Assembly (NCBI GenBank): GCA_030248215.1
Contig: JASANG010001699.1
Coordinates: forward strand, 22,827 to 86,826
Origin: Enoplolaimus lenunculus
Taxonomy: Eukaryota > Nematoda > Enoplea > Enoplida > Thoracostomopsidae
Direction of reading: 5' to 3'
Length of the DNA stretch: 64,000 nt
The notes under the pieces are model-generated. The model made no database searches. It was not told where the DNA came from and saw only the letters and a program-made list of their open reading frames with translations. Shown here in pieces: positions 9,777-56,017 of this stretch; positions within the stretch are counted from its first letter, which is position 1; each line of letters starts with the position of its first letter. A program made the translations under genes and the position numbers.

Positions 9777-9896
9777 GCTTTGCCATAGGCTTAGACTAAG
9801 ATTTACGCAGTAATTCAGCTTAAGATCATAGTAGAGGAGGCCAATGTTGCCCTATTAAAGGCCGTCCCATTTCCCCTGGTCAGCAATGTACCTGGT

Positions 9897-16500: not shown

Positions 16501-19500
16501 ATGTTAAAAATCAGGGATTTCAGCGAAAGACTGTAGGAAACGGACTGATCCGATTTTCAAAACCAAAATTTTGCATCGGAATTTAATGTTAAATACATTC
16601 TGTTTGGATTCTCGCTGGTACAATTTTTTTGTAATATAAATAAATTAATTCGTCTTGTAAGTTGCCGCCGCCCCCCCGCCCCTCGATTTTGGGATCAACT
16701 GCTGCGTTCCCTGTTCAAAATAACAAAAAAAGGAGTGTACTGACTGTGCCGTCCCCGCTTACTGATTCATACAAATCGCGTCGGTCGCCGAATGAACGTC
16801 GATCAATTTGACGGTCGTATTTGCTTGCGACTGCAATCTTTGGCTGAAACAACCCGTCACCGCATACAGTATCATTCATGTAGAACTGTATAAACCCCGT
16901 AAACTAAAGAAACCGCTGCAGTGCACACTGTCTAAGTATGCTAGTACAGATGCGTATAGTTCAAATTTTGTACAACCACAAGACGTGAGAGTCCCTTCGA
17001 GCATCAAGTTCGGTTAGCTGAATGGTGATAGTAAGCGTCTCAAATTCTGGCCCATATAAAAATCAAGGGCGGAGCGTTTTTCTGTAGGACTAGAATAGAA
17101 TAAGCATAAAGCTTTAGACTAATTTTTTGCTTGGCTTACTCTTAGGCCTAGGCTTAGGCTAGATCTTAGGAATATGCTTGTAATACTATTCCGCCCCTGT
17201 TCTTTACATTGGCCCAAATTCCTACGACCGGTGTTCGATTCTGTACTTGAGAAATAGACCCATGGTCGATATAAAAATGTTTGCACCAATTAAAATTTTT
17301 TCTATCAGGTCTACATGGAATATTTGAGATAAAGATTGTTTAAACAAACAGTACGTTCACTATAATATAAAGCTTGTAAAAAGTATAATCATACTTTCAT
17401 TTGAGGTGTGTGAACTGACTTAAAAGTTTTCTTGCAAGCCAGCGTAGCGACCGAGGCAACATTAGCGTACTCTACGATTCAGCAGGTTGTATTCCAAAGG
17501 CTGTCAGTATGCCTTTTTTCTCGTCTCTCCAGAAACTTCTGGGTAGGCAACAGATATACCCGCCTATCTCGTCTTGTACATACGAAACTGCTTAAACACA
17601 TGGCGACGACGGACGACGACGAGCGGCGACGAGTGGCCCCACAGGATTTTTAAATTTTAAAAACATCCCGACACCCTAATTCCCAGCTGTCTAATTTCTG
17701 GCGAAAGCATAAACCAACAATGATGTCAAGCTTCATTTCGTTATTACCCAATGTCCATAATGTTTTGGCTCCAGTTGTGTATTCGTCAGCTTGCAAATAA
17801 AAGCTTAAAACTGAACTGATGTAGTCTTTTTATTAGCGTATTTTAGATAAAAACATGTATTTTCAACGTGGAAACGTACCGGAAATCGGGAGTTTGCGGC
17901 ACTGAAATAAAAATTAATATTTAGCGTTTAGAGATAGATAAATGTTTTAAATACTGAATCTTGACTATGTTCACGCTAAATTTGCGGAATATCAGCACGC
18001 AAAATAATTACCAAGTATAGAAATATGACTAAAGCGACAACTATGAGTAAATTTCGACAAATTGACCAATAACTTCAAATAGTCTATTACTATTCTATAT
18101 TCATACAAAGGTTTCAGTTATGGTCAACAAACACAAACCGCATAGAAAAGTACTTAAAGGGAGGGTGCATATAATATTAACTTTTTGGCCTAAAAACGGA
18201 AAAATATTCTAATTTAGGTTTTTACACGTTCTAGAATCGTGCTTAATACGGAAAAACCAACCTAAATTAAATATTCAATCCAATGTATTCCGTTTCAAAC
18301 GTTTTCACATAATAGGTTTAGGTTTAGGCTTTAGGTTTGATTTTGTTCAATTACGTTTTTACTCGCTTGTGCAAAATTTTAGCAAATATATTTACTAATA
18401 TAGACAGTATATACACTTACTCAGGATCCAGACCTTTTTTGAGAGCTTTATTTCGGTTGATTTGTCGTTGTCGCTCGTTCAACTCTTTAAGCTGAAACAA
18501 TAAAATAAGTTACAATTCAATCTTAATAGTAAAAACGTTCGTAATTTCACAAATGTATATATCTGATCAAAAATGGCAATTCAGAGACCTTTGCAAAACA
18601 ACATCAAACCACTAATTAATCTTTCTATTCACAACAGTTTAATTTTAATGGTTCATCATGACGGCTAAAACAGTATGAAGTATGATTTAATAAAATCGAA
18701 CAAAATGGACAACCCGTGTATTACTTTCATAGGTCAACGCACTTTTTAACGATTTTCGTCATTCGAACCAAAAAAATATATTTAATCACATTGAATTTTA
18801 GAAAAACGTGTAGGCTAAACTACTATCGTTCTCTATCGATTCATTAATAACTCTCATATGAGCAATTGAACTGGGACGCTTGGTGATTGAGTAAAATCTA
18901 CTCACATCGTACTCTTGACGTTCGTGTCGTTTCTCTAAATCGTACCGATCAGCTTCAAGTTTGCAAATGCGTGCGTGCAGTTCTTTCACCTTAGCGCGCA
19001 AACCCTGCAAACCAAAAGCGACAGCATCTTTGGTGACTATATTCATTAATGGAAATATTTTCAATTACAATCTTTTAAATTTTTCTCATTTGGTTCAAAA
19101 ATTTCATTAATGTATAGCGTATACGGCCAATGTAACGAACAGCGGTGGAACAGTATTATAAGCTTATTGCTAAACCTAAGCCTAAGCTTGAGCCTAAGCC
19201 TAAGTATATAAGAATGAGTTTATTCCTAAGCGTAAGCCTAAGCTTTAGCAAAGCAAAAAACTTAGTCTAAAGCTTAAGCTTATTCTTTTCTAGTCCCACA
19301 GAAAAACGTTCCGCTCGTGATCTTTACACGCGCCATGTAACTAAATAGTGAAACAATTGTACAGTTGGAAACACGTTACGTGTCAGGTCTACACTGAGGA
19401 TGAATGAAATGGTTTCTGCGATTGAACGGCGCTAAGTTTATCTTTAACGGACAACAAACGCGAATATTTCTGTATTTTACTCGGCTCACAACCGTATATT

Positions 19501-22500
19501 TTAATGAAACTTTAAGTAAAAGTTAACAGAAAAGTTTCCGTTCCAGGAAGTGTCGCAACACAAATTAGGAATCCTGTACACTTATGTTTATACTTCAAAT
19601 TTAGTCTCAGGTTTAGAGTTAGGTTATAGAAGAAAGCTTTCGTAAAGGTGTAAGGCTTTAAGCATCATTGGTAAGGCGTTTCGTAATGTTTATCATAACT
19701 GAATCGTGTCAACAAATTTACACGATTTAATTATGATAAACATTACGAAACGTCTTATCTATGCTTAAAACTTTACACCTTTACGAAAGCTTTCGTCTAA
19801 AAACCTAACTCTAAGCCTGAGACTTAATTTCAAGTATAAAGTAAATGGTGTCAAATTAAAAATTTTTAGTGTCTCAGTTCTGTTGAAACGAACGCCAAAA
19901 ACATTTTGTGCTTACACCAATATCGAGACCGCTAACGTCGATTGGCTCAGACAACTTGCTGATGTATTCGTTTTTCTTCTCTTCCATTTGTTCTTTGGTC
20001 ATACCCATTTCGCTTTTGGCTTTAATGATGTTGCCCAGCTGTAACCAGCGTGTATAATCATAATAAAAAAAACCGATTTCAACTATTATCTTACAGCATA
20101 TTTAGTGATTGTTAATACTTTCAAGGATGTTTGTGATTTTATCAAATCGTTGTTCTGAGTCGCTTGCGTATTGCTCATCTAAACAATGGCCCATGTTACT
20201 TTAAGGGGCGTCCAGGTTTCTGGTGGGTCCATAAAAGAGTAGGATTAGATTCTAGATTACATTTTTTGCTTAGGCGTAGGTTTACGCTTAAGCTTAGGGA
20301 TACATTTTTGCAACGCTAAGCTTAGCGTTAGGCTTAGGAATACGTTTAATCTACTGTTACGCCGCCTTAAAGTAACATTGGCCTAAACGTTGATATCGCA
20401 ATCCAACTGAAAATCGTAATCAATCGATGACTCAAAACCAGTGGCGGCGTCTGCAGAACACTGCAGTTTAGAGGGCATTTAATATTTTTGGGGCCCCCTT
20501 CAATTGCAATTCAAGATTGCTTACTTTCCGACCGAGTCTATTTAGAGAGTCCGAACCAAATTTGGAACGCACGGCCTTCCAATACGTTCGCATGCCGACG
20601 CCCTTGTCAAAAACTTCAAAAACTAAACGTGTATGCGTTGTCAAAATGTAAACAAAATCAACTTAACTGAAATTTTGTTTAAGTGTTTATTTTTTTGAAG
20701 CTGTCTTAAACCCGTGTTTACCTTATCGAATTTATCACCGGCCGCTTCTTTCTCTGGGATGACAAAGTTCGGTTTGCCGTCGCCACCAGCTGCACCAAGA
20801 CCGGCCATCATTTGTTGTCGCTTGCGTTTGTCTTCTTCTTTCTTTCGTTTGTCCGCCTCCATCTTTGCTTTACGTTCTTCCTGTAACATGTAGTAAAGCC
20901 CAAAAATATGTGCTAATAAATTATTGAAACATGACTGTTATTATTGCTTCATTTAATCGCTTAGGAATATGCTTTTACTACTGTTACGGCCTTGTTCTAT
21001 ACATTTGCCGGTAGCTTGAATGGACATTTTTACAAGTCGAAATTGATTGTAGACCCTGTTAAGCATGTTCACTGCAACTTAATGAACCACTGTATCCAAA
21101 ATAGAAAAATCAGTGACATAAAAACGATTAAACACATGAAATAATAACATTAAATATTTTTCAGTTTTATATTTTAAAATGATATACTGAATTTTGATAA
21201 AGTTTGTTAAAAAACAACATACCTCTTCTTGCTTCCTGCGTTCTTCCTCGGCCTTACGTCGCTCGGCCATTTGCCGATCTTCTTCTTCTCGTTCTCGTCG
21301 ACGTTTTTCCTTAAAATACGTTTTACCAGTTTTAAATTATTATATATCTCATTTCTGACGATCATGGAATTGCACGGGTTTCCTTACCAAAGTTGGTCTT
21401 TAAATTCAAAACAAACTTAGTTTTACTTTAGTCACAACAACAGCGGCTTATATATCAAGTGCGTTTTCCATCACACGCGAGAAACGAACTAGAATGCGGG
21501 AACAATTGTTCTCTGAGGGTGCCATTAAAGGGACACAAAAGGTAACCCCAAAAAACGAAACTACCAGCAACTTAAGCAACGTTTGGCAGCCAATAAAGAA
21601 TCCGAAAGCAGATACAGTAGATCAAAAATACCGCGAGCAAAACAATCGAGAAGCCAGCACATTTTTCGTATTAAATGTTTTAAATTTTAGCACAAAACTA
21701 TAGTTTTGGTGTATTTTAGCGGTGTCGGCGACAATTTTTAGTTTTCTATCCTTTGGTTTTCTAGCCGATCGAGTGTCACTTCAGACATCGTTATATCAGC
21801 GTGCCTGGCAACATAACTTTTCAAAATACGCATCGTCTACTTCAAGCTCAACAAACAAACTTGTTTCTCTTTCAGCTGTCGCAGCTCTTCATCTTCCTTC
21901 TCACGTTGGACTCGACGTTCTTCTTCGTATTCGCGAAGTTTCGCTTCGTCTTCCTCTGCTTGTCGAATCTTAGCTGCCTGTAAAAAAGCAATGTTTACTT
22001 GTGCTAAAAACGGTGGCCAAATTACGTGCGTGGAGCGTTCCAGCTTTAATACATACCAAGTATATTTAAGCAACCGTGTTAAAAAATATAACGCAACTTT
22101 ATGAACACATTTTTCGTTCAAGATGGACTGTTAATATGTAAAACAAAACTACTGGGAATCTTGATGAAGCGATAGTCAAGTTAAATTTAAAGGTTTGACC
22201 ACAACAACAAATTACCTCAATTGCAGCCTGGGCCTCGCTGACTGGAGCCCCTTCGGCCGGCGCAGCTGGCTTTGGTGGCCTAAAAGTATATGTCGCTTTG
22301 TAGAAATACCGAGATATACTGCGTCGGCATATATATGAAACAAACAGCTATTTCAGTTTTGTATTTCGGTTAAATATTTTATCAGAATTTTTAAACAAAA
22401 TTAAACTTATATTTTTGGCAAATACTGCGACTACGGTGCTGAACAGTTTCGAACAATAAGTACAGCACCATCCTAAAAGCGCTGATGTAGATTGGATTTT

Positions 22501-25500
22501 ATTATTTTAAGTATGTATATAACAAACTAAATTGAAAATAAATAGAAATTAAATAAACTTACTTTGGTTTGGTTTCTCTGAAAATAAAAACAAATATTAT
22601 TTAGTATTTTTGGCACAGCAGGTTTTCAAAAGTGTGAATGCTGCGTCCGCGGAAACTCTTACTGCCAACTGATTCAAGTTTTCAACGGAGACACATTGGA
22701 TTATTTGTCCAAATATCAAGGTTTATCATCCACGGCTCCGGTTCATAGCACGCACTGAACACCTCGGACCTATGTTAAGACTAGCCAGCTTTAACGTGAT
22801 CGGAGAGGCCAAAAAATTTTAACATGGGGCATGCGGTTAAAATAACAAGCTTGCAATCGGGACCAAAATTTTAGCAGGTTGGCACAAAATTACTGCTAGT
22901 GAAGGCTGACCTCCCGCCCCCACTCTGGCTAATGGCCCGGTTTAGGCCACAAGAATGTTAATAGCCTACCGGTAAATCATATGTTCTTAAACGTGTTAGT
23001 TCAAAACATTTGTCCCGATAAACCTTGACATGGATAGAATTAATTTTAACTTGCCGTCGGCATTCTAACTATAAATTATCGTTTTAGAAATCATTTTGCT
23101 CATCTCCCCTCGTATCGAGTCACTACAGCTAACGGACACGTTTAGTGACACTGTGGCATTTCCAGAAAGTTCTGATTATGTAGAAGAAGCCAAACGCAAT
23201 TTTAGTTCAAAATGTTTACAAAATGTTTTCATTTTGCTCTTTCTTGGGGGAGGCTAGGTCTGGTTGGGCACCCTTGAATAACCTAATGCTTGTATAGGTA
23301 TTTGCTACCACACAATGTAAAGATAGACTGAATGCGAGCTAGCAATTTTTGTAAAAATATATAACCGTTTGAAAAGGACTGTTTTGAGGTACACCAATCT
23401 GATTTATGGGGTTTGAAACACAGATGTGGTTGTAATATTCGCAGGGTTCAATTTTTGACCCTTCACGTTTAGTAAGGAGCAACGCTTAAACACACGAAGC
23501 TATCTGTTATGCTTAACACGTCAAGTTCTCACTAAACTCTAAAATTAGTTTCTACATGGTTAATAGTTGTTTGCTTCAAAGGTCCACGTTAACATCAGGG
23601 GCGGAGAGTTTTTCTGTGGGACTAGAATAGAGTACGTTTAAAGTTTTACACTAATTTTTTTGCTTGGCTGCTTCTAGCCTTAGGTTTAGGCTTAGGAATA
23701 TGCTCATTGTTGCGCTTAGGTTTAGAGTAAGGCGTAGGCTTAGGCTTAGGAATACGCATTTAATACTGTTCCGCACCTGTTATTTACATTGGCCGGTTCA
23801 AGTAGTGTTTGGAACAGCCCTGCAGTCAGAAATTGTTAGTAGAGGAAGACAGAATATTTATTAAAGTGGCAGAAAAAATTTTCTAACACAAAAATGTTTT
23901 TTTTTGCGAAAAAAATTTGTGGTCAGGGGAGAACGATGTTCGTATGGTGGGCGTCCTTGCTTCTACGTGCAATGGCTCTACTAATTTGGGGGTCGAAAAC
24001 TTTGCAAAATGTATCAGGTTCTCTTAGAACCAGTTGAGGAATTGTTTTGTACAAAATTGTGCAGTTAATTCGGTTGAAATCTACTTAGTCAAATCTTAAA
24101 CATTTCTGCCAATGTGAAGAAAAGGGACACAACAGTATAATAAGCATGTTGCTAAGCGTTAACGTAAGCCTAAGCCTAAACCTACGTGTAAGAATGTGCA
24201 TATACCTAAGCGTAAGCCTAACACTTAACCTACGCCAACCAAAAAATGAGTCTAAAGCTTAATCGTTCGTCTAGGTGTAATCTAAATAAGCATAGTTAGA
24301 GTTGCGCTATACTCGACGTCCGGCGCCGTCCGGTGCGGTCAGTCACGTTCGTCACCAGTACGACGCCGCCCATCACCGTCCGTCATCCGTACGGCGCCGT
24401 GCGTCACAGTTCGTACCATATGTTATCGTACGTGAGTTATTTGCGTACGATACCGCACGGTGACGGACGGCGCCGTACGGATGACGGACGGCGCCGTATG
24501 GATGACGGACGGCACCGGGGAGCACGTCAACAAAAGTATAGCGCAACCCTTATTCTTTTTAGTTTAGTATTTCACAAAAGTTACCGAAACTAACACAACA
24601 AGAAGGTTTTCCATTGGATCACAAAAAAGGACAGAGATAGAAGTACAGCCAGAAAGCGGATTTATTCTTAAATATGTGTAGCACCAAGCACAATTTAGCA
24701 GTTTCTTAAAACTCCACAATTTACTCAGGGATTATTTAAAAGTATTGAAGTAGGATGATTCGATTTTTAAACAAAAGTTAAATGTTTTCATACCCGTATA
24801 AATATTTGAACCCTATATATACATGATATCTTTGTGGAATCTGAAAAAAGGTTCAAGTCTTTTGAGCAACTTCGGATCTGTTATTGTGACACCAGCCGTA
24901 ATCACTATGATGGTTAAAATGTTTAACAATCGAGTTTCCAAAAATGTTCAAAATTTTGACTACAAATTATTATTATTACTGACAACAGGTGCTGCACATA
25001 TTTGAGAATACTCAACACTGCAAAAAATGGTTAGAGTCAAATTGACTCTCCGAAATATACTTTTGCTGACTACGCAAACTGAGTTAAAATTCGACTCCGC
25101 CAGAGTCAAACATGCTACTCAGTGAGTTGAATTTAACTCTGGCGGAGTCGAATTTTGACTCAGCTTGTGTAGTCAAGTAAAGCCTATTTCGGAGAGAGTC
25201 AATTTGACTCACCATTTTTTGCAGTCATGCTCCAAGAAAATAAACTTACACTGGTGGAGCCTCATCTTCTTCTTCTTGTTGATACTCGCTACAATGCAAT
25301 CAGTGAGAGCATATTTAGCAACGAACAACATTTTGGTTTGCGTCACAATGAGCATTTTTTGGCAAAACACAAACGGTCTATTTGTTAATAATCTGAGCCC
25401 CGACAAATATGGTTTCACTATGCATGCAAACTACATCATACCAGGACCGTATGCGCCCTGGCTAAGTTGCGGCTGACCTTAGGTCAAATTGAAAATTTTA

Positions 25501-28500
25501 CTGGCGGTCTACTGAACGTTCAACTCTGTACTGCGGCAAGTTGCAGCGAATGATTTATCAAGTGTTTCACTTTTTGAAACAAACTTTTTTCGGTCCCAAT
25601 AACGGGCTTAGGCTTTCGCTGCACTGAAAATCGAATTTTTCCAAAATTCAAATTTAGGTGCGGAATGATAATGAGGTTGGTGTAAGCGATAATTTTAAAA
25701 TTGAAACATTTTCGAGGAACGCAAGCCGGTTAGATGCTCGACAAGGTATCAGACAAAATTTAGCGCTAAAGCAATATATGTTAATTGCATATATATAATG
25801 TATAATATATAATTAAATATAAATATATATGTATATATATAATCTACTCAATCATACTAAATTCGATCTATTCGGCTAAAATCAAACTAAAACCAAAACG
25901 TGCCTCATTTTCGTATATTTTAATATATGTTGCTTATTTAATTTACCGTAGAGTATGAAGTAAAATTGATTTCACTTTCATATGTTACGAAGTACGGAAC
26001 TGTAAGCAAGCGTAGAAATAAAGGAAATTAAAAATCAATCATAGAATGATATTTTTATTAGAATAAACACTACTACTTAACGTAATTTCTCATGTCTGCC
26101 AGTTCCGACAAAACGATGCGTCAGATTGTTTGCTGTTTTTTGTTAAAGGCTCAAGGAAGACAAGTCCCCCAAAACAAGGATAAATCACAAGCATAATCAC
26201 AAGGACGTTGACGTACTCTCACAACGAGGGGCATAGCCAGGATGCTTAAAAAGATGGAGTACGGTCTATGCTAATTTTGGAGAAAAATTACCGAAAACCA
26301 TTGAAAAACCCCACAGAGCGTGAAGTTTACACCCTAAAACTAGCATCCTAGCTGCCCCTCGCTATGTTCATGGACACATATTGCTTTGCAGTGAAGCTTT
26401 GCACATTAGGCAACAAACAAATATTTGTGCAATTTTGCATAAAAGGGCAAAAATTATATCCGGATGCAAAGTGAAAATATTGTTTTTAAACTAACAACTA
26501 AACTTATATTTACTCCAAATATTATCTTTTTTCACTCAAAATTAAGTTACCCCCAATCGGGTTTTCTGTTCAAGTCGTATTTGGCAAAGCGTCACGGCGA
26601 AAAATAGTTTGTTTTAATAGAAAAATTTAAAATACTGCATTAAATGGTGTAAAAAATTTCAAATTTAAAACATTTTTGCAACCACAAAAACGTTGCTTAC
26701 TTGACTTCTTCTTCAGCTTCGGCCTCCTCTTCTTCTTCAGAACTGAAAAAAGAAAGTTCACAAAAATTAATTTTAAAAACTGAATTAAATATATTCTACA
26801 GTGCTAACAATAATGATTTTCAGTTTGATTTTTCAGTCGTTATATATGCTTAGTCTATTCTCAAAATGGCCAATACAAGATTTATAAGGAAAACTGCACA
26901 AAATTGCAATTTCGTGCAGTTATAACTAGTGAAAATGCAGGACATAAAAATTATTTGGTTCGATAAACCCATACACCACGGTCTCGAATATCAGAATAGT
27001 CTCATACACTGGACAATGAGAGTGAGGACTTGAACGACAATTTGCAGACAAAAACATGTTCCATAACCTATTACATTAAATTCTTGAGTGCACTCCACCA
27101 ATGTATAGAATAGGGCCGTAACAGTGCTAAAAGCATATTCGTAAGCCTATACCTAAGCCTACGTGTAAGGATGAGCTTATATGCAAGCCTTAGCCTCAGC
27201 AAAAAATTGTCTAAAACTTAAGCTTACTCTATTGTAGTCGCACAGAAAAACGTTCCGCCGCTGCTTTTTACATGTACCGAATGCTCTAAAAACTACTTAT
27301 GAGCATGTGGACACACCTATAGTCGGATACGCTCACTGCATACTATGCAAATTTGTAAATCTTGTTATGATTCGATAATGTAGTGTCAAATATAAAGTAC
27401 GAATTGCTTGCAAATTGGCAAAATTTAGCAATTTCCAATTATGTGAGTTATAGGCAGTAATTTGAATATGTTTCCATCAAAATATAAGATGCAACATTGT
27501 CAATCTGTACAACATTGAATGTCAATGCTTGTTCGAACACTGGTTTACGGTATTTTTTTGAAGGCTGACTGCAGTTTAATGTCTCACAGCGGTTGCACCG
27601 CAGCTGCGCGCCGCACAGAGGAACAATTGCTTGGTTAACCGATACGAAACGTTTATCAAAAAACGCCATTACAAACACTGAGAGTAGCTGCTGTTTGATC
27701 TTCTACGTTATAATTGATTTGCTAAATCTGTCGGTGACGTTTGTTCCCAACAAAAAATAAAATTTTGCTAAAAATATTAATTTGTCCAGCAATAGATATT
27801 TCGGCAAGTAGTGATTTGATCGAATGTTGTTTCGGTTTAAGAGTATTGCGTTCGTTCAATTTTCCAAGCAATTGCTGCTCTGTACTCTCGCCAAGCAAAA
27901 ATTTTGTGGTCAATGTTATACAGACTGACAAATGACATCATATTGAACGATGACAGCGTATTGTTTTGATTTGACAGTTGTTCTGAGTTGTTTTAGGTTT
28001 GTAGTTATCCTTGGAGACTTCGGAAACCGTTGTGTAGACTTGAAATTTGATGATATCAACGTTTGGAAACGTTGGAATATTATAAATTTCAGATTAAGTA
28101 TTACTGCTATTTTTTGATTTGGTTTTGCATATGCTGTACTTAATAGCTTGAAGTACAATTTGATAATGTGTGGCCATTATGTATTTTTGGGCGTTTCGTA
28201 GCGGCAACCAAGCCATTGTTCATCTGCTGGCCGCCTTGACTGGGACTTATTACCGAAACCATCCGCAAGGTATACCAGCATTTTCATACGTTTGTTCAAT
28301 TTTGTACAGATTTGACATGACGTTGTGAAGTAGTTTAGCTTGCCTGGATTGTATTGTTTCCGCTCACACCGGTACCATTGCTTGTATCCTGTGTTTATCT
28401 GGTTGAAGCTGTCAACGAAATGTTGAACCAAAATAGCGAATTTAGGTTTCTGGTTTTGATCACAGGTTCGTCTTCGCGTGTTTCGCATATTCGCTGGCTA

Positions 28501-31500: not shown

Positions 31501-32782
31501 GCGAATAGCTTGATGAGTGACCACGGTAGCTACCCATACTGCTTTGTTAATTTATCATCAAAGCAGACCGTTCAGTTTGCGCTTATGGTGCAGTTTCGTT
31601 GTCATCGTTAGTCTCTGGAGACGTAAATTCTGCTAATATATGAGTCGATTGAACTGTAAAGATTGCTAGTGCAATAAAGCATGCATAAAAATTGCTACCA
31701 ATTGCAATCGTGGCTCAAAACAAATGGGTGAAATATTTTGTTTATGCTTACGTGCTGCTTTGTCACAACGTTTTATGAATCAATTGCGAAGTTTCACAAG
31801 ACGAAACGTTAACAAACACTAAGTTTATATACGAGGATTTAAACTTACAGGTTGATGCTAAACATGGGTCCATGCAAAAATCAGGCGCGGAACATTTTTC
31901 TGTGGGACTATAGAATAGAGTAAGCTTAAGCTTTAGACTATTTTTTCCTTGGCTTAGGCTTCGGCTTAGGCTTAGGCTTAGGCTTAGGCTTAGGAATAAA
32001 CTCATTCCTGCGCTTAGGCTTAGGCTTAGGCTTAGGCTTAGGCATATGGATATGCTTTTAACAGTGTTCCGCCCCTGTTCTTTACATTGGCCGCAAAAGT
32101 TGAAAATATTCAAAAAATAGCAAATTATATGAAAAAAGTTTCACAATTTAACGTTGTATATGACTATAAAAATTATCTTAAAAACTTAAGTTATTAAGCC
32201 TGACGATGCATGCACGGTAGATGTATGATTTTATTTTTTTACAGCTGTTTCTGATCTACAATCGCTCGATTGCCGACACTTTTCTTCAATTAGCTTTTAC
32301 TCCAAGTGTTCAGTTAAGTTTTTTTTGGCCCATGTAAAGATCAGGGGCGGAACGTTTTTCTGTGGGACTAGAAAAGAGTAACCTTAAGCTTAAGACAATT
32401 TTTTTGCATGACTTAGGCTTAGGTTGTGAAATATGCTCATTCTTACGCTTAGGATTAGGCTAAGGCTTACGCTTAAGAATATGCTTATAACAGTGTTCCG
32501 CCCCTGTTGTTCACATTGGTCAGTTTCGTTTTAATTTTGGCTAAGGTCAAACGTTTTTAATAACGCTTTTAGTCTATACGAATGAGAAATTTTACGGCAA
32601 CTCTACAATGGCAACAAAACTTACTTTCCCACAAATCTGAGCATTTTTAAGTCTGAATTAAGACATCGAGTTAAATTCGAACTCTCGGCGTAACTTATCT
32701 CTCAGCAACCCGGCAAAAAAATAAACTAGAAAATATATTATAGTTTTGATAAAATCACTTACTAGTGTTCTTCGTCAGACAT
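13518..32782 (-). CDS. TnT: Troponin T, 15 coding exons
   Basis: Tropomyosin-binding subunit of troponin on the muscle thin filament. Exons: 32763-32782, 26701-26742, 25250-25288, 22563-22577, 22216-22279, 21861-21977, 21223-21309, 20722-20880, 19916-20038, 18906-19004, 18421-18491, 17880-17901, 16763-16843, 14561-14752, 13518-13532. The lengths sum to 1146 nt, giving 381 residues, with all phases consistent. Order: acidic start [19 protein letters not shown]; Lys/Pro linker; charged helix ([31 protein letters not shown]); [16 protein letters not shown]; the conserved helix [20 protein letters not shown] with [10 protein letters not shown] and [10 protein letters not shown] (residues about 223-278); then [35 protein letters not shown] and a short EEAPAE end. 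It lacks the long C-terminal poly-Glu tail of some troponin Ts. The small exons at 26701, 25250 and 22563 are phase-symmetric, so they could be alternatively spliced. The 6-kb first coding intron holds another long open frame. Confidence 0.95.
14131..14243 (-). mobile_element. Family B element, right end lost
   Basis: Starts GCCAATGTTACTTTTAGG, then GTAACGATAGATTCAGCGTATT, four GCCTAA units, an A-rich tract and a spacer ending CTCTTTTATAG, where it is truncated before the right terminus. It lies in the last troponin T intron. Confidence 0.75.
15234..15450 (+). mobile_element. Family B element with two TTAGGC arrays
   Basis: Termini GGCCGGTGTTACTTTAAGGG and CCCCTAAAAGTAGCATTGGC are inverted copies. 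Two TTAGGC blocks lie inside (about 15318-15364 and 15388-15408), separated by AATACGCTTTGTTTGCAACG. It lies in the troponin T intron between the exons at 16763 and 14561. Confidence 0.85.
15646..15839. mobile_element. Family C foldback element
   Basis: ACTGCAAAAAATGGTGAGT at the left, inverted as ACTCACCATTTTTCGCAGT at the right. The inner arms are also inverted (AGGCTTTCCCGGACTACAC against GTGTAGTCCGGAAAAGCCT; AAATTCGACTCCGCCAGAG against the GCGGAGTCGAATTTT arm). The 194-bp element can fold almost end to end. It lies in a troponin T intron, and a second copy is at 25017-25225. Confidence 0.85.
17049..17214 (+). mobile_element. Family A element
   Basis: Left end GGCCCATATAAAAATCAAGGG with GCGGAGCG, then TTTTTCTGTAGGACTAGAATAG; right end TTCCGCCCCTGTTCTTTACA followed by TTGGCC. 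Short TTAGGC-type array around 17140-17160. It lies between troponin T exons 17880-17901 and 16763-16843. Confidence 0.85.
19125..19334 (-). mobile_element. Family A element
   Basis: GGCCAATGTAACGAACAG at the left; GTTCCGCTCGTGATCTTTAC then ACGCGCC at the right. Two GCCTAA blocks (about 19172-19204 and 19224-19240), the A-rich tract and TAGTCCCACAGAAAAACG follow the family order. Intronic in troponin T. Confidence 0.85.
19590..19837. repeat. Foldback repeat, arms of about 110 bp
   Basis: The left arm, from TATACTTCAAATTTAG through GAAAGCTTTCGTAAAGGTGT and CGTTTCGTAATGTTTATCAT, is inverted on the right as ATGATAAACATTACGAAACG, ACACCTTTACGAAAGCTTTC and CAAGTATA. Only about a dozen bases (CAACAAATTTA) separate the arms. 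It sits in a troponin T intron 79 bp from the exon at 19916-20038. I found no second copy in the window. Confidence 0.85.
20188..20383 (+). mobile_element. Family B element
   Basis: GGCCCATGTTACTTTAAGGG and CCTTAAAGTAACATTGGCC as inverted termini, with CGTCCAGGTTTCTGGTGGG next to the left end, a degenerate TTAGGC array and AATACGTTTAATCTACTGTTA next to the right end. Intronic in troponin T. Confidence 0.85.
20959..21010 (+). mobile_element. Family A right-end fragment
   Basis: Only the right end of family A is present: CTTAGGAATATGCTTTTAC, CTGTTACGGCCTTGTTCTAT and ACATTTGCC. It lies in the troponin T intron between exons 21223-21309 and 20722-20880. Confidence 0.6.
23581..23794 (+). mobile_element. 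Family A element with two TTAGGC blocks
   Basis: Left end GGTCCACGTTAACATCAGGG then GCGGAGAG; right end TTCCGCACCTGTTATTTACA then TTGGCC. Two TTAGGC blocks are split by AATATGCTCATTGTTGCGC. Intronic in troponin T. Confidence 0.85.
24108..24280 (-). mobile_element. Family A element truncated by a foldback element
   Basis: GCCAATGTGAAGAAAAGGGAC at the left, two GCCTAA-like blocks and the AAAAAATGAGTCTAAAGC segment. The right terminus is missing and a GC-rich palindrome begins 20 bp later, which suggests that the second element interrupted this one. Confidence 0.75.
24301..24549. mobile_element. Family D GC-rich foldback element
   Basis: Ends GTTGCGCTATACT and AGTATAGCGCAAC are exact inverted copies. 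The interior is built of CGTACGG, GGCGCCGT and GACGGACGG motifs that pair across a centre near 24430. Its GC content stands out from the AT-rich intron around it. Poorer relatives are at 33210-33392 and 62849-62945, and a possible one begins at about 43125. Confidence 0.8.
25017..25225. mobile_element. Family C foldback element next to a troponin T exon
   Basis: ACTGCAAAAAATGGTTAGAG at the left and CTCACCATTTTTTGCAGT at the right, with inverted inner arms (CTCCGCCAGAGTCAA against CTCTGGCGGAGTC). It is the same family as 15646-15839. It ends 24 bp from the 5' splice site of the troponin T exon 25250-25288. Confidence 0.85.
26225..26361. mobile_element. Small inverted-repeat element (CGAGGGGCATAGCCAGGATG)
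   Basis: CGAGGGGCATAGCCAGGATGC at the left is inverted as GCATCCTAGCTGCCCCTCG at the right, with about 95 bp between. It lies in the troponin T intron between exons 26701-26742 and 25250-25288. A related string, GACATAGCCAGGATTTG, occurs near 15123. Confidence 0.7.
27096..27278 (-). mobile_element. Family A element
   Basis: CCACCAATGTATAGAATAGGG at the left and GTTCCGCCGCTGCTTTTTACA then TGTACC at the right. GCCTA-type hexamers are decayed, and the segment AAACTTAAGCTTACTCTATTG is retained. It lies in the first coding intron of troponin T. Confidence 0.75.
27280..28702. other. Intron stretch downstream of the 944-codon frame, no gene recognised
   Basis: Part of the first coding intron of troponin T and possibly the 3' flank of the minus-strand frame at 28703-31537. 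Minus-strand frames of 60-103 codons exist (27448-27678, 27722-27931, 28177-28488) but resemble nothing I know and have no convincing splice pattern. On the plus strand the stretch 27930-28650 is unusually rich in T and G, which may reflect minus-strand transcription or an old repeat. Confidence 0.4.
28703..31537 (-). CDS. Unrecognised 944-residue protein, single long open frame inside the troponin T intron
   Basis: I do not recognise this protein. The frame is uninterrupted for 945 codons in DNA clearly richer in G and C than its surroundings, which is improbable by chance. Seen: an N-terminal Ser/Gly/Thr-rich stretch (residues 1 to about 150, e.g. [19 protein letters not shown]), a Pro/Ala-rich stretch ([15 protein letters not shown]), a charged helical piece ([20 protein letters not shown]), a long central region of alternating hydrophobic residues with several Cys that could be beta-sandwich domains, and Arg-rich basic segments near the C terminus ([22 protein letters not shown]). 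No signal peptide or membrane segment is evident. It has the same orientation as troponin T and lies wholly within the intron between exons 32763-32782 and 26701-26742. It may be a complete intronless gene or one exon of a longer gene; splicing could also remove the last part, which is less protein-like. Confidence 0.65.
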   Translation of the reverse strand: MGSYRGHSSSYSLTNPGLSGGASSLLRSDRATTTGASRYASGGGNQRNVISKGSFLSSLPTSSATSSQLSKSRLLPSSSAISGSSQLRRSVTRSFDDEPSGLLGTSSGYGYHTTSQATVGGYELAKYTPQAASQQPMSSHDFLKAYKSKQQDDSKPGTAAGTSSAELGGFKTASHCIVPADATPAFQGPLPGPVAPAVLEPAAPGFHMTSPPLKSPSQQGTPWSSETQHASITALPVRTGEFDIIKTIIADVSVPSSRDRASGSPAGRRGSGGQLGWPFSDPSVRINPGVLSQINEDLVTLKQHSDTEDVTGKFPFLTRLLRDMSPESLRLRNRMYRASRRLSDETAAQIELEQAFHKSSCKNTESSSIQIGCEILNFLIEFKIREPKLHFESTEVQLHFSKHLYADSMKNFEKTIPINQKISTILAHFECYDANKDTTCDISFTLNDSANTKRRVNATVEIAEYFELTVTIQPVCVRLNFEETNLEVEVAKNPVEHSLEACFASSHTLALLKRFKARRLTFEQINHNFLMSKRGIGSHFCIHCVLSTADHAQLEPKFLREPVSVNVEHRPTLDCQLDTTVSHDSARCSLQCHSQNATGTAPLRLLTSCSATFRPQRSTLDRIMKKFSADKPCNVAIDHKLRAQLSSLPPRSPTFKIDLEPSDMAAPHLPRPQYKLRPRRRHEDATLIRLIFNTNGAAKFPPTSDDGDTVMPVLIQRRRPSAFKESELRSAGTQDVPEFVIIQRNILRRLSVSRGADYKTYRSYCGDTDRYRRRSKSPTNRWPPPLNRSRVVLGNQPGGLPPSGAIRPPNMSGELSLQIPHASHGQTRPGAAQQFPTMHLEMNGNVVIDDNRSGSYQLVKSRSGLFGVHLKKVEQRSHGRVVKIDSHCVHRGPSFGVGHARRAWENYGATSAAVASANSFRSGSKKRWCPRWRRTAVAATPAVC
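31866..32092 (+). mobile_element. Family A element with the cleanest telomere-type array
   Basis: Left end GGTCCATGCAAAAATCAGGCG with GCGGAAC, TTTTTCTGTGGGACTA; right end TGTTCCGCCCCTGTTCTTTA then CATTGGCC. Inside are two near-perfect runs of CTTAGG/TTAGGC units (about 31955-31995 and 32015-32042). It lies between the first troponin T exon and the start of the 944-codon frame, about 330 bp upstream of that frame. Confidence 0.9.
32327..32521 (+). mobile_element. Family A element
   Basis: GGCCCATGTAAAGATCAGGG then GCGGAAC at the left and TGTTCCGCCCCTGTTGTTCA then CATTGG at the right. Almost intact termini, with a decayed TTAGGC array. It lies 242 bp downstream of the first troponin T exon. 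Confidence 0.88.
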
Positions 32783-34782: not shown

Positions 34783-34924
34783 GGCTAATGTTACTTTAAG
34801 GGGCGAAGCAATAGATTATGCGTATTCCTAAGCCTAAGCCTAAGCCTAACCCTAAGCAAAAAATGTAATTTAAAATCTAAATTTACTTTTTTATAGGCCC
34901 ACCAGAAACCTGGACGCCCCTTAA
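34783..34924 (-). mobile_element. Family B element, right end truncated
   Basis: GGCTAATGTTACTTTAAGGGG at the left, GCGTATTCCTAAGCC leading into four GCCTAA-type units, the A-rich tract, TTATAGGCCCACCAGAAACC and TGGACGCCCCTTAATG, where the right terminus breaks off. Confidence 0.8.
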
Positions 34925-35470
34925 TGAGCTCAACATGGACGCAAAGCCTTGCGTCTGCGTTTGGTTCTTTTCCAGGATGTAAACGGATAATAAAAAAATA
35001 ACGGAAACGGAAACAGAAAACAAAGATTGAAGTACAAAAAGTATCAAAAATGTTTTATTGCTCTGTCAACGCTATGAAACGTGCAAATATTCATCCGGTT
35101 TTCTAAAATTTTAAAACAATAAATATGCGATGCACCCGGTCGTTAAAATTGCCATGTGTTTGAAATTTTTTGAGGTTCAAACGTGCCTTGTGGGAGAACA
35201 TTTTGTGTGACCTTAAATCATCAAAATCCGCCTCAGTTAAAAATCCTGATTACTACTGCGATACGTTAAATGTCCACATTTTTTACTGTACTGGACTGTG
35301 TCCCAATTCATATAAAGAATACCGATCAATCAGATTTGCTGATCTACATTATGCCATGTCCGAAACGAGCGGAACCTGAACAAATTTAAATGGAAAAATT
35401 CTCAGTTAGTATACATAAGAAAGTTCCTTGATTGAGGTCGTCGAACATACTGAATAGTAAAAAAGCAACG

Positions 35471-35525
35471 GGCAATGTGTAGAACAGCGCCGTTTTAGTT
35501 GTATAAGCATATTCCTAAGCCTATG
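35471..35525 (-). mobile_element. Family A left-end fragment
   Basis: GGGCAATGTGTAGAACAG, then CATATTCCTAAGCCTA, after which the sequence changes to unrelated DNA at about 35525. Confidence 0.6.
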
Positions 35526-35990: not shown

Positions 35991-36128
35991 GGCCCATGTA
36001 TAGAGCAGGGCCGGAACAGTAGTATAAGCACATTTTTAAGCCTAAGCCTAAGCCTAAGCCTAAGCAAAAAAATTAAACAGACTTGAGCCTCTGCGGAAAA
36101 CGATCCGGTACTGTTCTGTACATGGGCC
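35991..36128 (-). mobile_element. Short family A element with strong inverted termini
   Basis: GGCCCATGTATAGAGCAGGG then CCGGAACAG at the left, inverted as GTACTGTTCTGTACATGGGCC at the right, around four GCCTAA units. At 138 bp it is the shortest complete copy here. Confidence 0.88.
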
Positions 36129-36600: not shown

Positions 36601-36778
36601 GGCGCATGTAAAGATCAGGTCGGAACTGTTTTTCTGCGTAACTGCAATAGAGTAAACTTACGCTTTTGACTATTTTTTTACTCAGGCTTAGGTTTAGGTT
36701 TAAGTTAATTCTTACGCTTAGGCTTAGGTTTAGAAATATGGTTATGCTACTGTTACTGCCCTGTTCTATACATTGTCC
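36601..36778 (+). mobile_element. Family A element
   Basis: GGCGCATGTAAAGATCAGG then TCGGAACTG at the left; CTGTTACTGCCCTGTTCTAT then ACATTGTCC at the right. Two short TTAGGTTTAGG-like blocks inside. The 155-codon minus-strand frame over this element is not a gene. Confidence 0.82.
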
Positions 36779-36917
36779 ATGAGTTCTAGCAATATATAAT
36801 GCGTCATCCATTTTATCGTGTGCCCGCCGTGTGTAAAATTGACGCAACCAGTTCCGAGTACATGTAGTCATTAATTCTTGGCCCATGTTAACTATAAGGG
36901 GCCTGTCCACTGAGAAT

Positions 36918-37190
36918 TTCCCAATCTCCCAATGACCCAGTCTCCCAGGGTCTCAGTCTCCCAGTGTCTTAGTCTCCCAGTGTCTTAGTCACCCAGTGTC
37001 TCAGTCTCCCATGTTCCAGTCTCCCAATGTCTCAGTCTCCCAGTGTCCCAGTTTCCCAGTATCCTAGTCTCCCAGTGTCCAAGTCTCCTAAGTATCCCAG
37101 TGTCCCAGAGTCTCAGTCTCTCAGTGACCCAGTCTCCTAATGTTCACAGTCTCCCAGTGTAACAGTATCCCAACGACCCTGTTTCCAATG
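36918..37190. repeat. Minisatellite, unit about 16 bp (AGTCTCCCAGTGTCTT)
   Basis: About 270 bp of imperfect AGTCTCCCAGTGTC(T/C) repeats, with runs of CAGTCTCCCA. It starts within 40 bp of a lone family B-type end, GGCCCATGTTAACTATAAGGG (36880-36900). No right-hand terminus follows. Confidence 0.88.
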
Positions 37191-37584
37191 TTCAGAGCCA
37201 CTGTCTTGGTCAATATTGCCTTCTTTAGCCCTATTCTATTGCAGTATACTGAAAAATGAAAAACCCTTAAAAGTACTACATGGTCTTGTTTCTATATATG
37301 GTAACAGTTTTGACTATTGCCGCACAGGGCCGCAGACAGCTCACCTTGCTGGGGGGGGCTAAAAATTATCAGGAGGGCATTCAAGGGTTTTCAATGAGTT
37401 ACAAGTAAGGTTGAAAACTTTCTAGTGGGATCAAAATTTTTCAAGGCGTGCTGAGCCCCCCAGACCCCCATTGACTACGGGCCCATTGCCGCACCGAGAA
37501 TTTTTGAATTTTCATGTAGAGTTTATTCGTGTATCGGATTGCTGATCTTAAACAGGAATAGCGAAAAACAGTCATAAGCTGCTT

Positions 37585-37773
37585 GGCCAATGTTACTTTA
37601 TTGGGCGTAACAGTAGATTAAGCGTATTCCAAAGCCTAAGTCTAAGCCTAAGCTTAAGCAAAAAAAATTAATCTAGAATCTAAACGTACTCTTTTATAGG
37701 CCCATCAGAAACCTGGACGCCCCTTAATGCAACATGCGCCTACACTTGGACGACCCTTAAAGTAACAATGGCC
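37585..37773 (-). mobile_element. Family B element with doubled right end
   Basis: GGCCAATGTTACTTTATTGGG at the left, GTAACAGTAGATTAAGCG, GCCTAA-like array, AATCTAGAATCTAAACG and CCCATCAGAAACCTGGACGC. The right side has two ends in series: GGACGCCCCTTAATGCAAC, then GGACGACCCTTAAAGTAACA closing with ATGGCC. Confidence 0.85.
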
Positions 37774-39056: not shown

Positions 39057-41212
39057 TTAATCTTGCTTTTGAATTCGCCGCGCTCGGCGGTCAGTAATCC
39101 ATGCAGCAATGGCGTCTTGTTTAGTTGCCATAAGTTCATCGATTGCGTTTTGAAATACGGTAAAACACAAACCACACAACGATAACGCCATTAAGATATA
39201 AATCATCAACAACAGAGTGTATCCTAGGTTTGTCGGTACCAGATCGCCAAATCCAATGGTGCTATAGGTGATAAAGCTAAAATAGGACGCGTCAAAAAAT
39301 GACCATTCGTCTTCGAGGGCCCATAGAATTGTGGCGCCGAACGCCAGAAACGTAACTGTGACCAACGTTGAAACAATTACACTGAACGTAAACTCTTCAC
39401 TTTGATCGATGTCAGGGTACCGTTTGGCGACAGCTCGTTTAATACAAATGGTCATCAATTTACCAAGTTCACCCATTAGCACCAGCGTGAAAGGGATCCC
39501 GATTGATCCGTAGATAATCGTTGCTATTTTGCCGCAAACAGTCGCTGGACACAGGTTACCGTAGCCTAAAATAATACTTTTACAATTGTTACCGTAAGCA
39601 TATTTTAAGCATAACAGCGTCAGTGTACAAAGAAGCCTCAAGCTAAACTTTAACCGTACAATTTAGCAAAAATATTAACTGAAAGCCGAAAATAGGTATT
39701 CTTATTGTAGTCACGCAGAAAACACTACGCCTGCAAAAGTATATAACATTTATCGTTCTGTTTTCTGTTTTTAGCCCGTCTCCATTGCCGCTTTTAGAGG
39801 CTGCTTGTTATTGAAACGGGACAGTATTAACAACCGATATTCGTTATGCAAAACAAAACTGTGGAAAGAATATGTGCCTGTTTAATATGCAAAATTATCC
39901 AAAGTGTATTCTGGCCGAAATTATATCTTTGACACATTGCTTCAGGTTTTAGAATCTTGTCCAAAAGTAGTGCTTTCAGTACCAACGATTTAGTATCAGG
40001 ACCGTCAAGGGCAATCATAACTGAAACGAGGAAAACTTTGGCCAATGTTACTTTTAGGGGCCAAACAGTAGATTACGCGTTGTCTAAGCCTAAGCCTAAG
40101 CGTTGAAAAAATGTGTTCCTAAGCGTAAGCCTAAAAAAATGAAATCTAGAATCTGAACCTGCTCTTTTATAAACCCACCAGAAACCTGGACGCCCCTAAA
40201 AGTAACATTGGCCAAAACATTAATGAAGATTTGATATTGGACGAAAATATTTGCGACCGAAACTCAGAAACAATATACAAACTAAAGACTTCGTAAACCG
40301 AATTGTATTACTAACCAATCGTTGTGACAATCGTGAAACTATAAAATACTGATCCAATGAACGTCCACTGATTGAGTGTACCACCAGATTCAGCGGGCAA
40401 ATCATCTTGAAGATCAATGCCATCGGCGAACGCTTCTTTCAACTTTTGTTCGTATAAATCAAGCCGCTCGTTCGCCATTTCTAACCAATCGTCTTCGTTG
40501 TTCACTATGGTTTCAGCCCAAAATACCTGAAATTGCGAGTGTCGATGAGTTAACGCCACCACACAGCAGAGAGTGCTTAAATTCTATCTTCGCGTGTATC
40601 CAGCTCTGGTGTAAGTAGCTATTCGTCGCGGCTATTTTCGAATCTGTACTTACGGTAAAAAAATTTAGAATTCCTACAAAATTCCAAAACACTAACTGAA
40701 AAATAACTATTTATTAAATTGCCAAATTTTAAATTATTGCTAATATTTGTTGGAAGTTGCAAAACACTGTACGTCCTCAATTTGCCGCTTCTGTAAATGC
40801 TGTTGAACGCTCCAAAATTCAATGTGAACGTATTGGCAGCAGAGCGTAACCGAATATTTTGGTTTTCTTTTCCGTCGCTTACTATCCTCCATTTACACCC
40901 TATGACAGGTATTTTTATTTTGACAACGTAACAATTGAAACAAAAATTTCGTTTTATGGTTTCAAATAATTATTTTTAAACACCGAAGCCATACTCAGGA
41001 TAAATTTTAAAGTTGAAAGTAAAATTAAAATTTACACTAAGCAGTTGCTGTCGGTCTCGTTCAAGCTTGTCAGTTACATCTTCAATAGCGTCTTGACGAT
41101 TTTCGTATTCCAAAAATTGAAACAAAACCCCGCCAACGGTGAGATATACAACATAAACGCCGAACAGCACTCCGCAGCGATGTGATAGCGAACGAATTTG
41201 ACTTGTGCTCAT
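39057..41212 (-). CDS. Two-pore-domain (TWK/K2P) potassium channel, 3 exons
   Basis: K+ leak channel of the plasma membrane; two subunits form the pore. Exons 41036-41212, 40316-40526 and 39057-39565 give 298 residues with consistent phases. Seen in order: M1 (residues about 13-36, GVLFGVYVVYLTVGGVLFQF); an extracellular cap helix rich in charge (60-110); pore 1 with W-TFIGSVFYSFTIVTTIGYG (filter TIGYG at 128-132); M2 (142-163); M3 (190-212, ending FGATILWALE); pore 2 with TYSTIGFGD (filter 232-236); M4 (245-268); and a short basic tail ending RRIQKQD. Both filters are intact. The cytosolic tail of about 30 residues is short for the family, where long regulatory tails are common. Intron 2 contains a family B element. 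The region directly upstream is a satellite-bearing mobile element (41311-42295). I cannot name the TWK subtype. Confidence 0.95.
40040..40213 (-). mobile_element. Family B element in K2P intron 2
   Basis: GGCCAATGTTACTTTTAGGGG at the left and CCCCTAAAAGTAACATTGGCC at the right form a near-perfect 21-bp inverted terminus. Inside are short GCCTAA blocks, AATCTAGAATCTGAACC and CCCACCAGAAACCTGGACG. A fragment resembling the family A side segment (TAGTCACGCAGAAAACAC) is at about 39700. Confidence 0.92.
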
Positions 41213-41310: not shown

Positions 41311-42295
41311 CCAGTCGTAGTGGGACTACATTTATTGAGCGAAGCTCGAACACACGTAAGCAATTAAGGTAATATGCAAATTAGTTATTAGCTAACTATT
41401 CATTTGTCGGTTTTGGAGGTTTGTAAGCAATTTCCTCAGATTCCTCGCACCCAAAAACCTTTCAGCCACCCTATAATTTTTGGAATAATTTTAAAAGTCC
41501 TAATTTTGTCTTGTCAATTAAGGTAATATGCAAATTACTATTAGCTAACAATTCAATTTTCGGTGTTGGAGGTTTGTAAACAATTTATTCAGATTCCTCG
41601 CACCCAAAAACCTTCAGTGAACCCTAAAAAAATTATTGAAATAATTTAAAAAGTCATAGTTTTGCCTTGTTAATTAAGCTACTATGCAAATTAGGTATTA
41701 GCTAACTATTCAATTATCGGTTTTGGATGTTTGTAAACTATTTATTCAAATTCCATGCACCTAAAAACCCTTTAGTGCTGAAATTATATTGCTTTTAACC
41801 TTAATAATTAGTGAAATATTGTAAAAAGTCCTAATTTAGGCTTATAACCTATACTAATATGCAAATTATCTATTAGCTAACTGCGCAATCATCGGTTTTG
41901 GAGGTTTGTAAACAGTGTACGCAGATTCCTCGCACCCAAAAACCCTTTAATGCTAAAATTAGATTGCTTCTAACTGTAATAATTAGTGAAATATTATGGA
42001 AAGTCCTAATTTAGGCTTAATTAATTATGCAAATTAGCCTGCAGCTACTAAACAGCTTGCAATTTTAAAACCCCAATGCGAGGTTAACATCCCAGGATAA
42101 CTGGCTTTCAAACAAAAAAGTTTATCAAAATCGGTTCAGCCGTTGCTGAGATTCTTTTCGGACGGACAGACGGACAGACGGACAGACGGACAGACGGACG
42201 GACGGACATCCACCTTTCGACCCCCAAGTACAAAACATAAAACGCTTCGCGAAACTCCGAACTTCGCTCGGAGTTTCGCTTCGCTCAATAATAAA
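41311..42295 (-). mobile_element. Satellite-bearing element (family S), upstream of the K2P gene
   Basis: Reading left to right it starts CCAGTCGTAGTGGGACTACA then TTTATTGAGCGAAGCTCG, runs through about five tandem units with the core TTAGCTAACTATTCA...CGGTTTTGGAGGTTTGTAA...CCTCGCACCCAAAAACC, then a head with TCCTGGGATGTTAACCTCGC-like complement, GGACAGAC microsatellite, TCGACCCCCAAGTACAAAAC and a hairpin, and ends GCTTCGCTCAATAATAAAG. The ends share an inverted TTATTGAGCGAAGC. It is opposite in orientation to the two copies at 52561-54786. No protein is encoded, so it is non-autonomous. Confidence 0.85.
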
Positions 42296-44131: not shown

Positions 44132-45800
44132 CCAATCAATTTTATGTTCGGCCTCTGACGTAAATGTATACTGTATATATATCGTTAAAATAACATTATA
44201 AAATAAGAGCCTAATCTGGACTTGGCGACACTTTTAAAACCAAACGAGAATATGTACCTATATTTATGTCAACTTGTAAGCCTAAAAAACTCTATTAAAT
44301 GTTGAGATAACCAAAAAATCACTCTGGCCCAGAGTGTAAGCAACAAAAGCAAACTATTGTACACAAGCTTTTACATAACAATGTACACTCCACGAATGTT
44401 GCCTCTGTTCCTGTACCTTTCTGTATACACCCGTTCTACTTTGAAGGACTCGTGGGAGTCAACAATGCAACTTTTACGGGGTGGTGTATATACAGCAATT
44501 ATCTGCGCGTTTTTGTTTCGCCAGCTCGCTGCTGCGCGAGCATTGTGTGTCTCGTTCCAATTTTGCAGAAATTGCTAAGCTCTAAGTTGGTATGCGAACT
44601 GCAAAACGCTCGTGAAAAAAGTGTAAGACTTGCTTAAAGACAGCTCTAAACGAATATGGAATGTTAAAATCGCTGCTATACACCAGTGAAACACCGCAGA
44701 CTGGAGATGTGACGCGAAAATGAAACGCTGCGTTTACATGTCATATATGCCTGCTCTGTTCGCGTTTAATACCTTCACTTTTTAGTTTAAAGACGCAAAT
44801 CCCATTTAGCAAAACAGATGAACGTAAAATAAATATTTATGGCAAAGAAAAGAAAAAACTATATTGTATTGACCCAAAAAGCGGTAACATGAGCGGGGAC
44901 TTCATTTTGGGTCGCGATCAATAGGAGTCCGTATCCCAAATAAGAGTCCGCAAGCGGACGTAGTTACTAAACCTTTAATTAGAGTCCATAAATGTCAATT
45001 ATCCCAAATCTTAAACTTTTATAGCTTAACTAAAAATTTGAATGTTAGCTTTAGAGAAACTTAAATGTCCAGACGGACTAACTAAACTAAAATGTTAAGG
45101 TTGACTTTTAAACTAGCATGTTTTTAGATTAACATGAGTTCAAGTAAACTTATTTTTAGATTAAGTAACAAGCGCAGCCCAGAAATTATGTGTATCTTTG
45201 ATTTCGTTAAGTTTGGATTATAAACTGAAATTATGTACCTAAGTTTCTAAATGAGTTTAAGCGTAAACCTACCTGTGAATTTAGTTAATCTGGAAAGTTG
45301 GTTTAATACTGTTGGATTACCTTAACCCTAAATCAAGTTAGTTTAAGCTTTTAGAGAGCACACTTGGTACACTGCTGTCCCGAGAAAATGGGATGGCCTT
45401 CAGGGTAACATTGGTTTCAGTTTTTTCCGTTTTGTTCTAAAAGATTGAAAAAGCGGAAAAAGCCGAAAAAATTTATGTGTTACTTACTTCCAAGACAGCG
45501 AAAAAAACTCCGCGGAAGCACAGTGAGAAATTGGCTTTTCCCAAGCTCCCGTCATTGCGAAGGATGATTTACTGGGGAGGATTCAGTGGCGAATCCAGAA
45601 ATTTCTGGGGGGCTGCACGAGATATAATAATGAAAGCACTCGCAAAGGCTTTTGGAATAACCAGCTTGGTTCTCATACCTTCCCGAAATCAGACGCAAAT
45701 TTCAATTTTCGACGCCGCTAACATCAGGTACCAAAAATTGATGCGTGGCGACTGGCGTACAAACACCTGCTCTGCGCTTTGTATTGATAGCTTAAAAGTC

Positions 45801-55914: not shown

Positions 55915-56017
55915 CCTGTTTTAGTGGTCGTCTGTTTGTTTTCGATGTTGTAAATTTTTGAGTTTTAGCCATGTCTTAAACATGAACTCTTTTTAATTTC
56001 CGTTTAGACACATGCTA

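Follow-up and report, generated by a model that had tools for sequence, protein, structure and literature searches.

A 64-kb stretch of Enoplolaimus lenunculus contig JASANG010001699.1 (positions 22,827 to 86,826, forward strand; hereafter the window, to which all copy counts and TTAGGC counts refer) carries two groups of short inverted-repeat elements, A and B, that enclose tandem arrays of TTAGGC, the nematode telomere hexamer (PMC9071541, excerpt). They are very probably sister families of old, non-autonomous, cut-and-paste miniature inverted-repeat transposable elements (MITEs), most likely Merlin-type, that generate an 8-bp target-site duplication (TSD) and in which the TTAGGC repeat is a hitchhiker. 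The analysis demonstrates that the elements have consistent borders, inverted ends and an 8-bp duplication, and that A and B are homologous and both contain the tract. The proposal of the initial annotation, that the arrays are the cargo of a transposon-like element, is thus supported within the window.

A BLAST search with the copy at 31867-32092 finds matches at most of the 13 positions initially annotated as copies or fragments of one family, together with a second set of copies, and the aligned copies split into subfamily A, with ends GGCCCATGTAAAGATCAGGGGCGGAAC ... GTTCCGCCCCTGTTCTTTACATTGGCC, and subfamily B, with ends GGCCCATGTTACTTTAAGGGGCGTCC ... GCCCCTTAAAGTAACATTGGCC. To lessen circularity, hidden Markov models (HMMs) were restricted to the element ends, being trained on 66 bases from the start or 40 from the end of full copies, with no exact TTAGGC inside. 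These end-only models match 22 copies, 16 A-type and six B-type, of which 14 are full-length (138-226 bp) and form the training set, and eight are further finds (at 11382, 11671, 14130, 20958, 24107, 35470, 56010 and, weakly, 39595). All 13 annotated positions are matched, nine of them as training copies that match by construction and four (11672, 20959, 24108 and 35471) independently; they belong to one family. The annotated extent of at least 13 copies stands as a minimum; the family is larger, with six B copies, A pieces at 11382-11453 and 39595-39730 (weak), and an A/B intermediate at 56010-56193. The element start given as 31866 becomes 31867 when aligned with the other copies. The copies are as follows.

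31867-32092, plus strand: A31, subfamily A, full-length, 226 bp, with two arrays of 4 and 5 exact consecutive TTAGGC units; flanking 8-mers TAAACATG/GCAAAAGT match at 3/8
32327-32521, plus strand: A32, A full-length; flanking 8-mers 4/8
17049-17214, plus strand: A full-length; TSD CAAATTCT/CAAATTCC, 7/8
23581-23794, plus strand: A full-length; TSD 6/8
36601-36778, plus strand: A full-length; TSD ATGAGTCA/ATGAGTTC, 6/8
35991-36128, minus strand: A full-length with internal deletion; TSD 7/8; array 29/29 pure
56605-56778, minus strand: A56, A full-length; TSD 5/8 (alternative start 2/8)
19125-19334, minus strand: A19, A full-length; flanking 8-mers 3/8
27096-27278, minus strand: A27, A full-length; flanking 8-mers 4/8; no exact TTAGGC left
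11671-11872, minus strand: A copy with damaged 5' end; end-only model match
24107-24268, minus strand: A copy with 5' part missing; end-only model match
20958-21010, plus strand: A 3' fragment without array; end-only model match
35470-35525, minus strand: A 3' fragment without array; end-only model match
11382-11453, plus strand: A 3' fragment absent from the original list; end-only model match
39595-39730, minus strand: weak A-like copy; array-free 5' model, E = 0.0037
56010-56193, plus strand: intermediate, A at 5' and B at 3'; end-only model match
15234-15451, plus strand: B15, B full-length; TSD AAACAGCT/AAACAGTT, 7/8
20188-20383, plus strand: B full-length; TSD 6/8
40040-40213, minus strand: B40, B full-length; terminal 14 bases complementary at 14/14; TSD 7/8
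37585-37773, minus strand: B37, B full-length with doubled 5' terminal inverted repeat (TIR), perhaps a nested or tandem insertion; TSD 5/8 at the outer start, 2/8 at the inner start
34783-34941, minus strand: B34, B full-length; flanking 8-mers 4/8
14130-14245, minus strand: B copy with 5' end lost; 3 exact consecutive units

Homology between subfamilies A and B extends along the parts without arrays, the array-free ends scoring 41 on the 5' side and 39 on the 3' side against maxima of 27 and 26 in 500 shuffles. Copy A31 has inverted ends of 33 bp with 76% identity, which its single-strand folding (z = -3.18) only restates. The short length, inverted ends, fixed borders and many copies (14 full-length of the 22) are those of a MITE, as is the fixed-length duplication of 8 bp. 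Outside the arrays, 46 of 55 A pairs share 70-89% identity and the other nine 64-69%, and this range, together with the degraded TSDs of many copies, indicates that the insertions are old. An exact pattern for A and another for B each had 0 matches in prokaryote and viral collections.

The initial annotation had proposed a search for target-site duplications, and the flanks of the 14 full copies provide clear evidence of them. The flanking 8-mers agree at 74 of 112 positions, compared with a mean of 32.9 (standard deviation 5.7) when the pairing is permuted and a maximum of 60 in 20,000 permutations. Only a length of 8 bp peaks (z = 7.2); lengths of 2-7 and 9-14 bp give |z| of at most 2.4, with z = 0.7 at 9 bp. 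The GGCC borders were chosen with the flank match count in view, a possible source of bias; the outer start of B37 and the 174-bp start of A56 were taken over alternatives matching at 2/8, and A27 and B15 were given manual borders. When B37 and A56, whose starts are debatable, are left out, 64 of 96 positions agree against a permuted 28.2, a value reached in 0 of 100,000 permutations. Agreement is at 6 or 7 of 8 positions in seven of the 14 copies, at 5 in two, and at 3-4 in five. Position 2 is an A in 12 of 18 duplication strings (nine copies, with A31, A32, A19, A27 and B34 left out), which may point to a degree of site preference.

Matches to TTAGGCTTAGGC (at most one mismatch, overlapping) number 62 in the window compared with a shuffled mean of 0.25, confirming that the arrays are non-random. 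TTAGGC is repeated exactly, twice or more in tandem, in 14 runs. Nine of these lie in full copies, which occupy 4.1% of the window; adding the eight fragment intervals (5.7% of the window in total) raises the number to 13. The expectation that tandem TTAGGC lies mainly inside the element holds within the window for the copies matched by end-only models, which contain 12 of the 14 runs (those at 14179 and 24168 via the 3' end alone); the other two are at 61687, in an element found only by array-including models, and at 63981. The latter, at 63981-63992, is the sole exact TTAGGC pair outside any recognised copy and is too close to the window edge to judge. Single TTAGGC hexamers number 101, with 45 in full copies, 66 in all candidate copies, and 35 outside, the last being slightly more than usual: TTAGGC ranks 14th of 180 hexamers of the same composition, whose median is 22. 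Interstitial telomeric repeats are usually explained by end fusion or break repair, and the run at 63981-63992 and the 35 of 101 hexamers outside candidate copies could be read as products of such events. However, the element-borne arrays share fixed borders and 8-bp duplications and lie at homologous positions, for which reason we reject a separate repair or fusion event for each array as extremely improbable. The data support spread by transposition, not chromosome fusion, for most tandem TTAGGC in the window.

The arrays had been annotated in all listed copies, with their parts in constant order. A TTAGGCTTAGGC-type 12-mer (at most one mismatch) is present in 10 of the 13 and missing from A27 (27096) and from two fragments (20959 and 35471). 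The order holds throughout the aligned full-length A copies, apart from 35991, where TTTTTCTGTGGGACTAG is mostly lost. Array-spacer-array copies exist in both subfamilies, and the TTAGGC tract therefore predates the A/B split. The AAGCTTAAGC part of A is also TTAGGC-like in phase (p = 0.0007; one of eight segments, uncorrected, hand-edited consensus), and the ancestral tract may thus have been longer. The remaining segments, likewise uncorrected, include the B 5' interior (p = 0.013), three near 0.05, and the B spacer (p = 0.87).

The arrays decay like the rest of the element and are no better kept than the flanks. Identity is 0.84 in arrays and 0.86 in non-array parts (16 copies, Wilcoxon p = 0.18), the array segments including the spacer, which lowers identity, and being chosen for periodicity, which raises it; at least three exact consecutive units are kept in just 5 of 22 copies. 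In C. elegans, unique DNA bounded on both sides by interstitial tracts of the same orientation (TALT1) can serve as a template for telomere maintenance without telomerase (PMC4595603, excerpt), and it could be argued that the arrays are likewise kept by selection, as telomere-protein binding sites or telomere-maintenance templates. Because they are no better kept than the non-array parts, we reject this as very unlikely, and the initial suggestion of dispersed sites for telomere-binding proteins is not supported, most copies also being too degraded. A few arrays are purer than decay allows, which suggests slippage after insertion: at 35991 the array is 29/29 pure, yet the non-array parts of this copy share 67-75% identity with those of other A copies. 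The expectation of such purity is 0.0007 to 0.009 at 22-15% divergence, for what is the purest of 16 copies and was picked post hoc.

Taken as hitchhiker-bearing MITEs of about 140-230 bp, A and B would descend from a common ancestor with the TTAGGC tract in two blocks, and the element would spread by means of a transposase supplied in trans that works on its inverted ends, the repeat travelling along with it. After insertion the copies would decay neutrally, and some tracts may re-expand in place by slippage. We infer the trans action and the slippage, as well as a telomeric start of the tract, if it had one.

Merlin elements are described as having 5'-GG termini, an 8- or 9-bp duplication, TIRs of 24-462 bp, and, in some families, internal tandem repeats (PMC8101967, excerpt). 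The consensus termini of both subfamilies have 5'-GG, which is found at both ends (the 3' end read on the complementary strand) in nine of 14 full copies; the duplication is 8 bp. The TIRs, which extend over 33 bp at 76% in A31 and have 14/14 terminal bases paired in B40, may fall within the Merlin range. For hAT elements the rules are termini of (C/T)A(A/G)NG and a duplication of nTnnnnAn. Although A and B share the 8-bp duplication with hAT MITEs, their termini are GGCC and not CAGGG-like, and just 2 of 18 duplication strings (9 of 14 copies) conform to nTnnnnAn; we therefore reject hAT membership, and termini and duplication length fit Merlin better. No DDE_Tnp_IS1595 domain was found in the 20 of 82 open reading frames (ORFs) scanned; such a gene is not expected inside a MITE. 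As no transposase was seen in these ORFs, we infer a Merlin affiliation at about even odds. Elsewhere in the window are two hAT-looking MITEs with ends CAGGGTGC / CAGGGTGCAACCGG, at 3357-3676 (duplication 8/8) and 45800-46161 (7/8).

Several observations weigh against classing A and B as Merlin-type MITEs with TSDs. GG is missing at one end in five of 14 full copies (A56 and B34 at 5'; A32, A27 and B15 at 3'), the TIRs are imperfect, as in A31, and five of the 14 (A31, A32, A19, A27 and B34) agree at just 3-4 of 8 flank positions. No transposase domain (Pfam) is present in the 20 scanned of 82 ORFs of at least 80 aa. A generic scan for TIRs with an 8-bp duplication, which gives 14 hits in the window and 0-3 in shuffled windows, finds, at the thresholds set, only three of the 14 full copies at precisely these borders. 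Finally, there is no paralogous empty site in the window, no match spanning query positions 60-82 at the junction; the nearest is a T-rich match of A32 at 53-80 (E = 0.007).

A probable relative, C, bears on where the repeat came from.

36880-37286, minus strand: probable relative C, in which a GGGAGACTGGGACACT-type 16-bp minisatellite replaces TTAGGC; flanking 8-mers 5/8

The 3' TIR of C is clearly related to that of B (score 29, shuffled maximum 19), and its 5' interior is related at a borderline level to copy A36 (26, shuffled maximum 25). The remaining three comparisons stay within the shuffled range (16, 22 and 14 against maxima of 23, 24 and 16), and the A and B models give no match to 36880-37286. 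The element group may be prone to tandem arrays of any kind.

A single capture event in the ancestor of A and B, for instance where a break had healed or within a subtelomere, may have placed genuine telomeric DNA between the transposon ends, after which it would have multiplied. This scenario fits inside the hitchhiker model as the origin of its cargo. The unit is the nematode telomere hexamer (PMC9071541, excerpt) and is present in A and B, and the TTAGGC-like periodicity also shows in the 5' interior of A (p = 0.0007) and, less strongly, in that of B (p = 0.013), so that the ancestral tract may have been long; however, the B spacer has no periodicity (p = 0.87), C holds an unrelated minisatellite mid-element, and four tandem TTAGGC units also occur in 43 stretches of a viral collection. 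We regard such a capture as evenly balanced between true and false. Nearly as plausible is an ordinary microsatellite grown by slippage in a repeat-prone MITE, its telomere likeness being chance. The minisatellite of C, and the possibility that the group is prone to any array, keep this alternative alive; MITEs with hitchhiking microsatellites are established (PMC9659126, excerpt), and the arrays decay like their flanks. By our estimate, though, TTAGGC is one hexamer class among several hundred, and an exact match to the telomere unit is unlikely to arise by chance in a nematode host.

Other repeats were noted in the window. The end at 9839 was rejected as a relative: a perfect ACATTGGCC lies beside a GGGACAGTT minisatellite, but no 5' end was found; the segment 9839-10641 (minus strand) is possibly a member with a lost 5' end. 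A possible further relative at 2047-2187 (minus strand) has ends GACGCATGTTAAT and TTAACATAGGCC, three exact TTAGGC hexamers inside, and flanking 8-mers agreeing at 4/8. Inverted-repeat elements with perfect 8-bp flanking repeats lie at 19641-19785 (AAAGCTTT) and 60458-60624 (GGCTAGCC), one of which may be chance, shuffled windows giving 0-3 such hits. Related satellite repeats of 153-175 bp form two blocks (41361-42019 and 52814-54631), apparently in opposite orientation and about 11 kb apart.

Among scanned ORFs there are Pfam matches to UPF0004, Ion_trans_2 and XK-related, and one exon-like ORF has a Troponin match just under the cut-off (25.8 compared with 26.2 bits); the placement of copies in troponin T introns relies on exon-like ORFs without a gene model. 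An Rfam scan of the window gave one marginal tRNA. In rhabditid nematodes the splice acceptor is TTTTCAG. The acceptors seen by eye at several exon-like starts (TTACAG, TTCTAG and TTGCAG among them) are unlike it, and close kinship with C. elegans therefore need not be assumed for the host.

It is conceivable, if rather doubtful, that most interstitial telomere-type DNA in the species was sown by a Merlin-type MITE with a captured telomere tract, giving thousands of paired same-orientation TTAGGC blocks. If so, and provided that the window is typical, there would be about one copy per 3 kb, and the paired blocks would be of a kind able to template telomerase-free telomere maintenance or to seed new telomeres at breaks. 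A transposon carrying the telomere unit would constitute a third origin of interstitial telomeric repeats, beside fusion and break repair, with a simple signature of borders and 8-bp duplication that is searchable in any genome; such tracts should not be counted as fusion scars.

No earlier description of a TTAGGC-carrying MITE was found among the matches listed, in a search that left most subscription papers outside. A MITE with the telomere hexamer as cargo looks new; MITEs with microsatellites are already known (Coates 2011; Hikosaka and Kawahara 2004; both as cited in PMC9659126, excerpt). The lepidopteran (GTCY)n MITEs (Coates 2011) and Xenopus Xmix/Xstir (Hikosaka and Kawahara 2004) are, like A and B, short inverted-repeat elements that spread an internal tandem repeat (PMC9659126 and PMC6947457, excerpts), whereas A and B probably belong to another superfamily and their repeat is identical to the telomere unit. 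With Merlin they share ends that are mostly 5'-GG, the 8-bp duplication, internal tandem repeats (reported for some Merlin families) and possibly the inverted ends, of about 25-33 bp (PMC8101967, excerpt), and they differ in showing no transposase in the ORFs scanned, in their 138-226 bp length, in their imperfect ends, and in the telomere-type hexamer array. The C. elegans genome has 1,229 interstitial telomere tracts (Frenk 2019, cited in PMC9071541), which are likewise short degenerate TTAGGC tracts within chromosomes; in the excerpt of PMC9071541 they are described as degenerate telomere tracts, whereas the arrays in the window are tied to a transposon with target-site duplications, at 22 copies in 64 kb.

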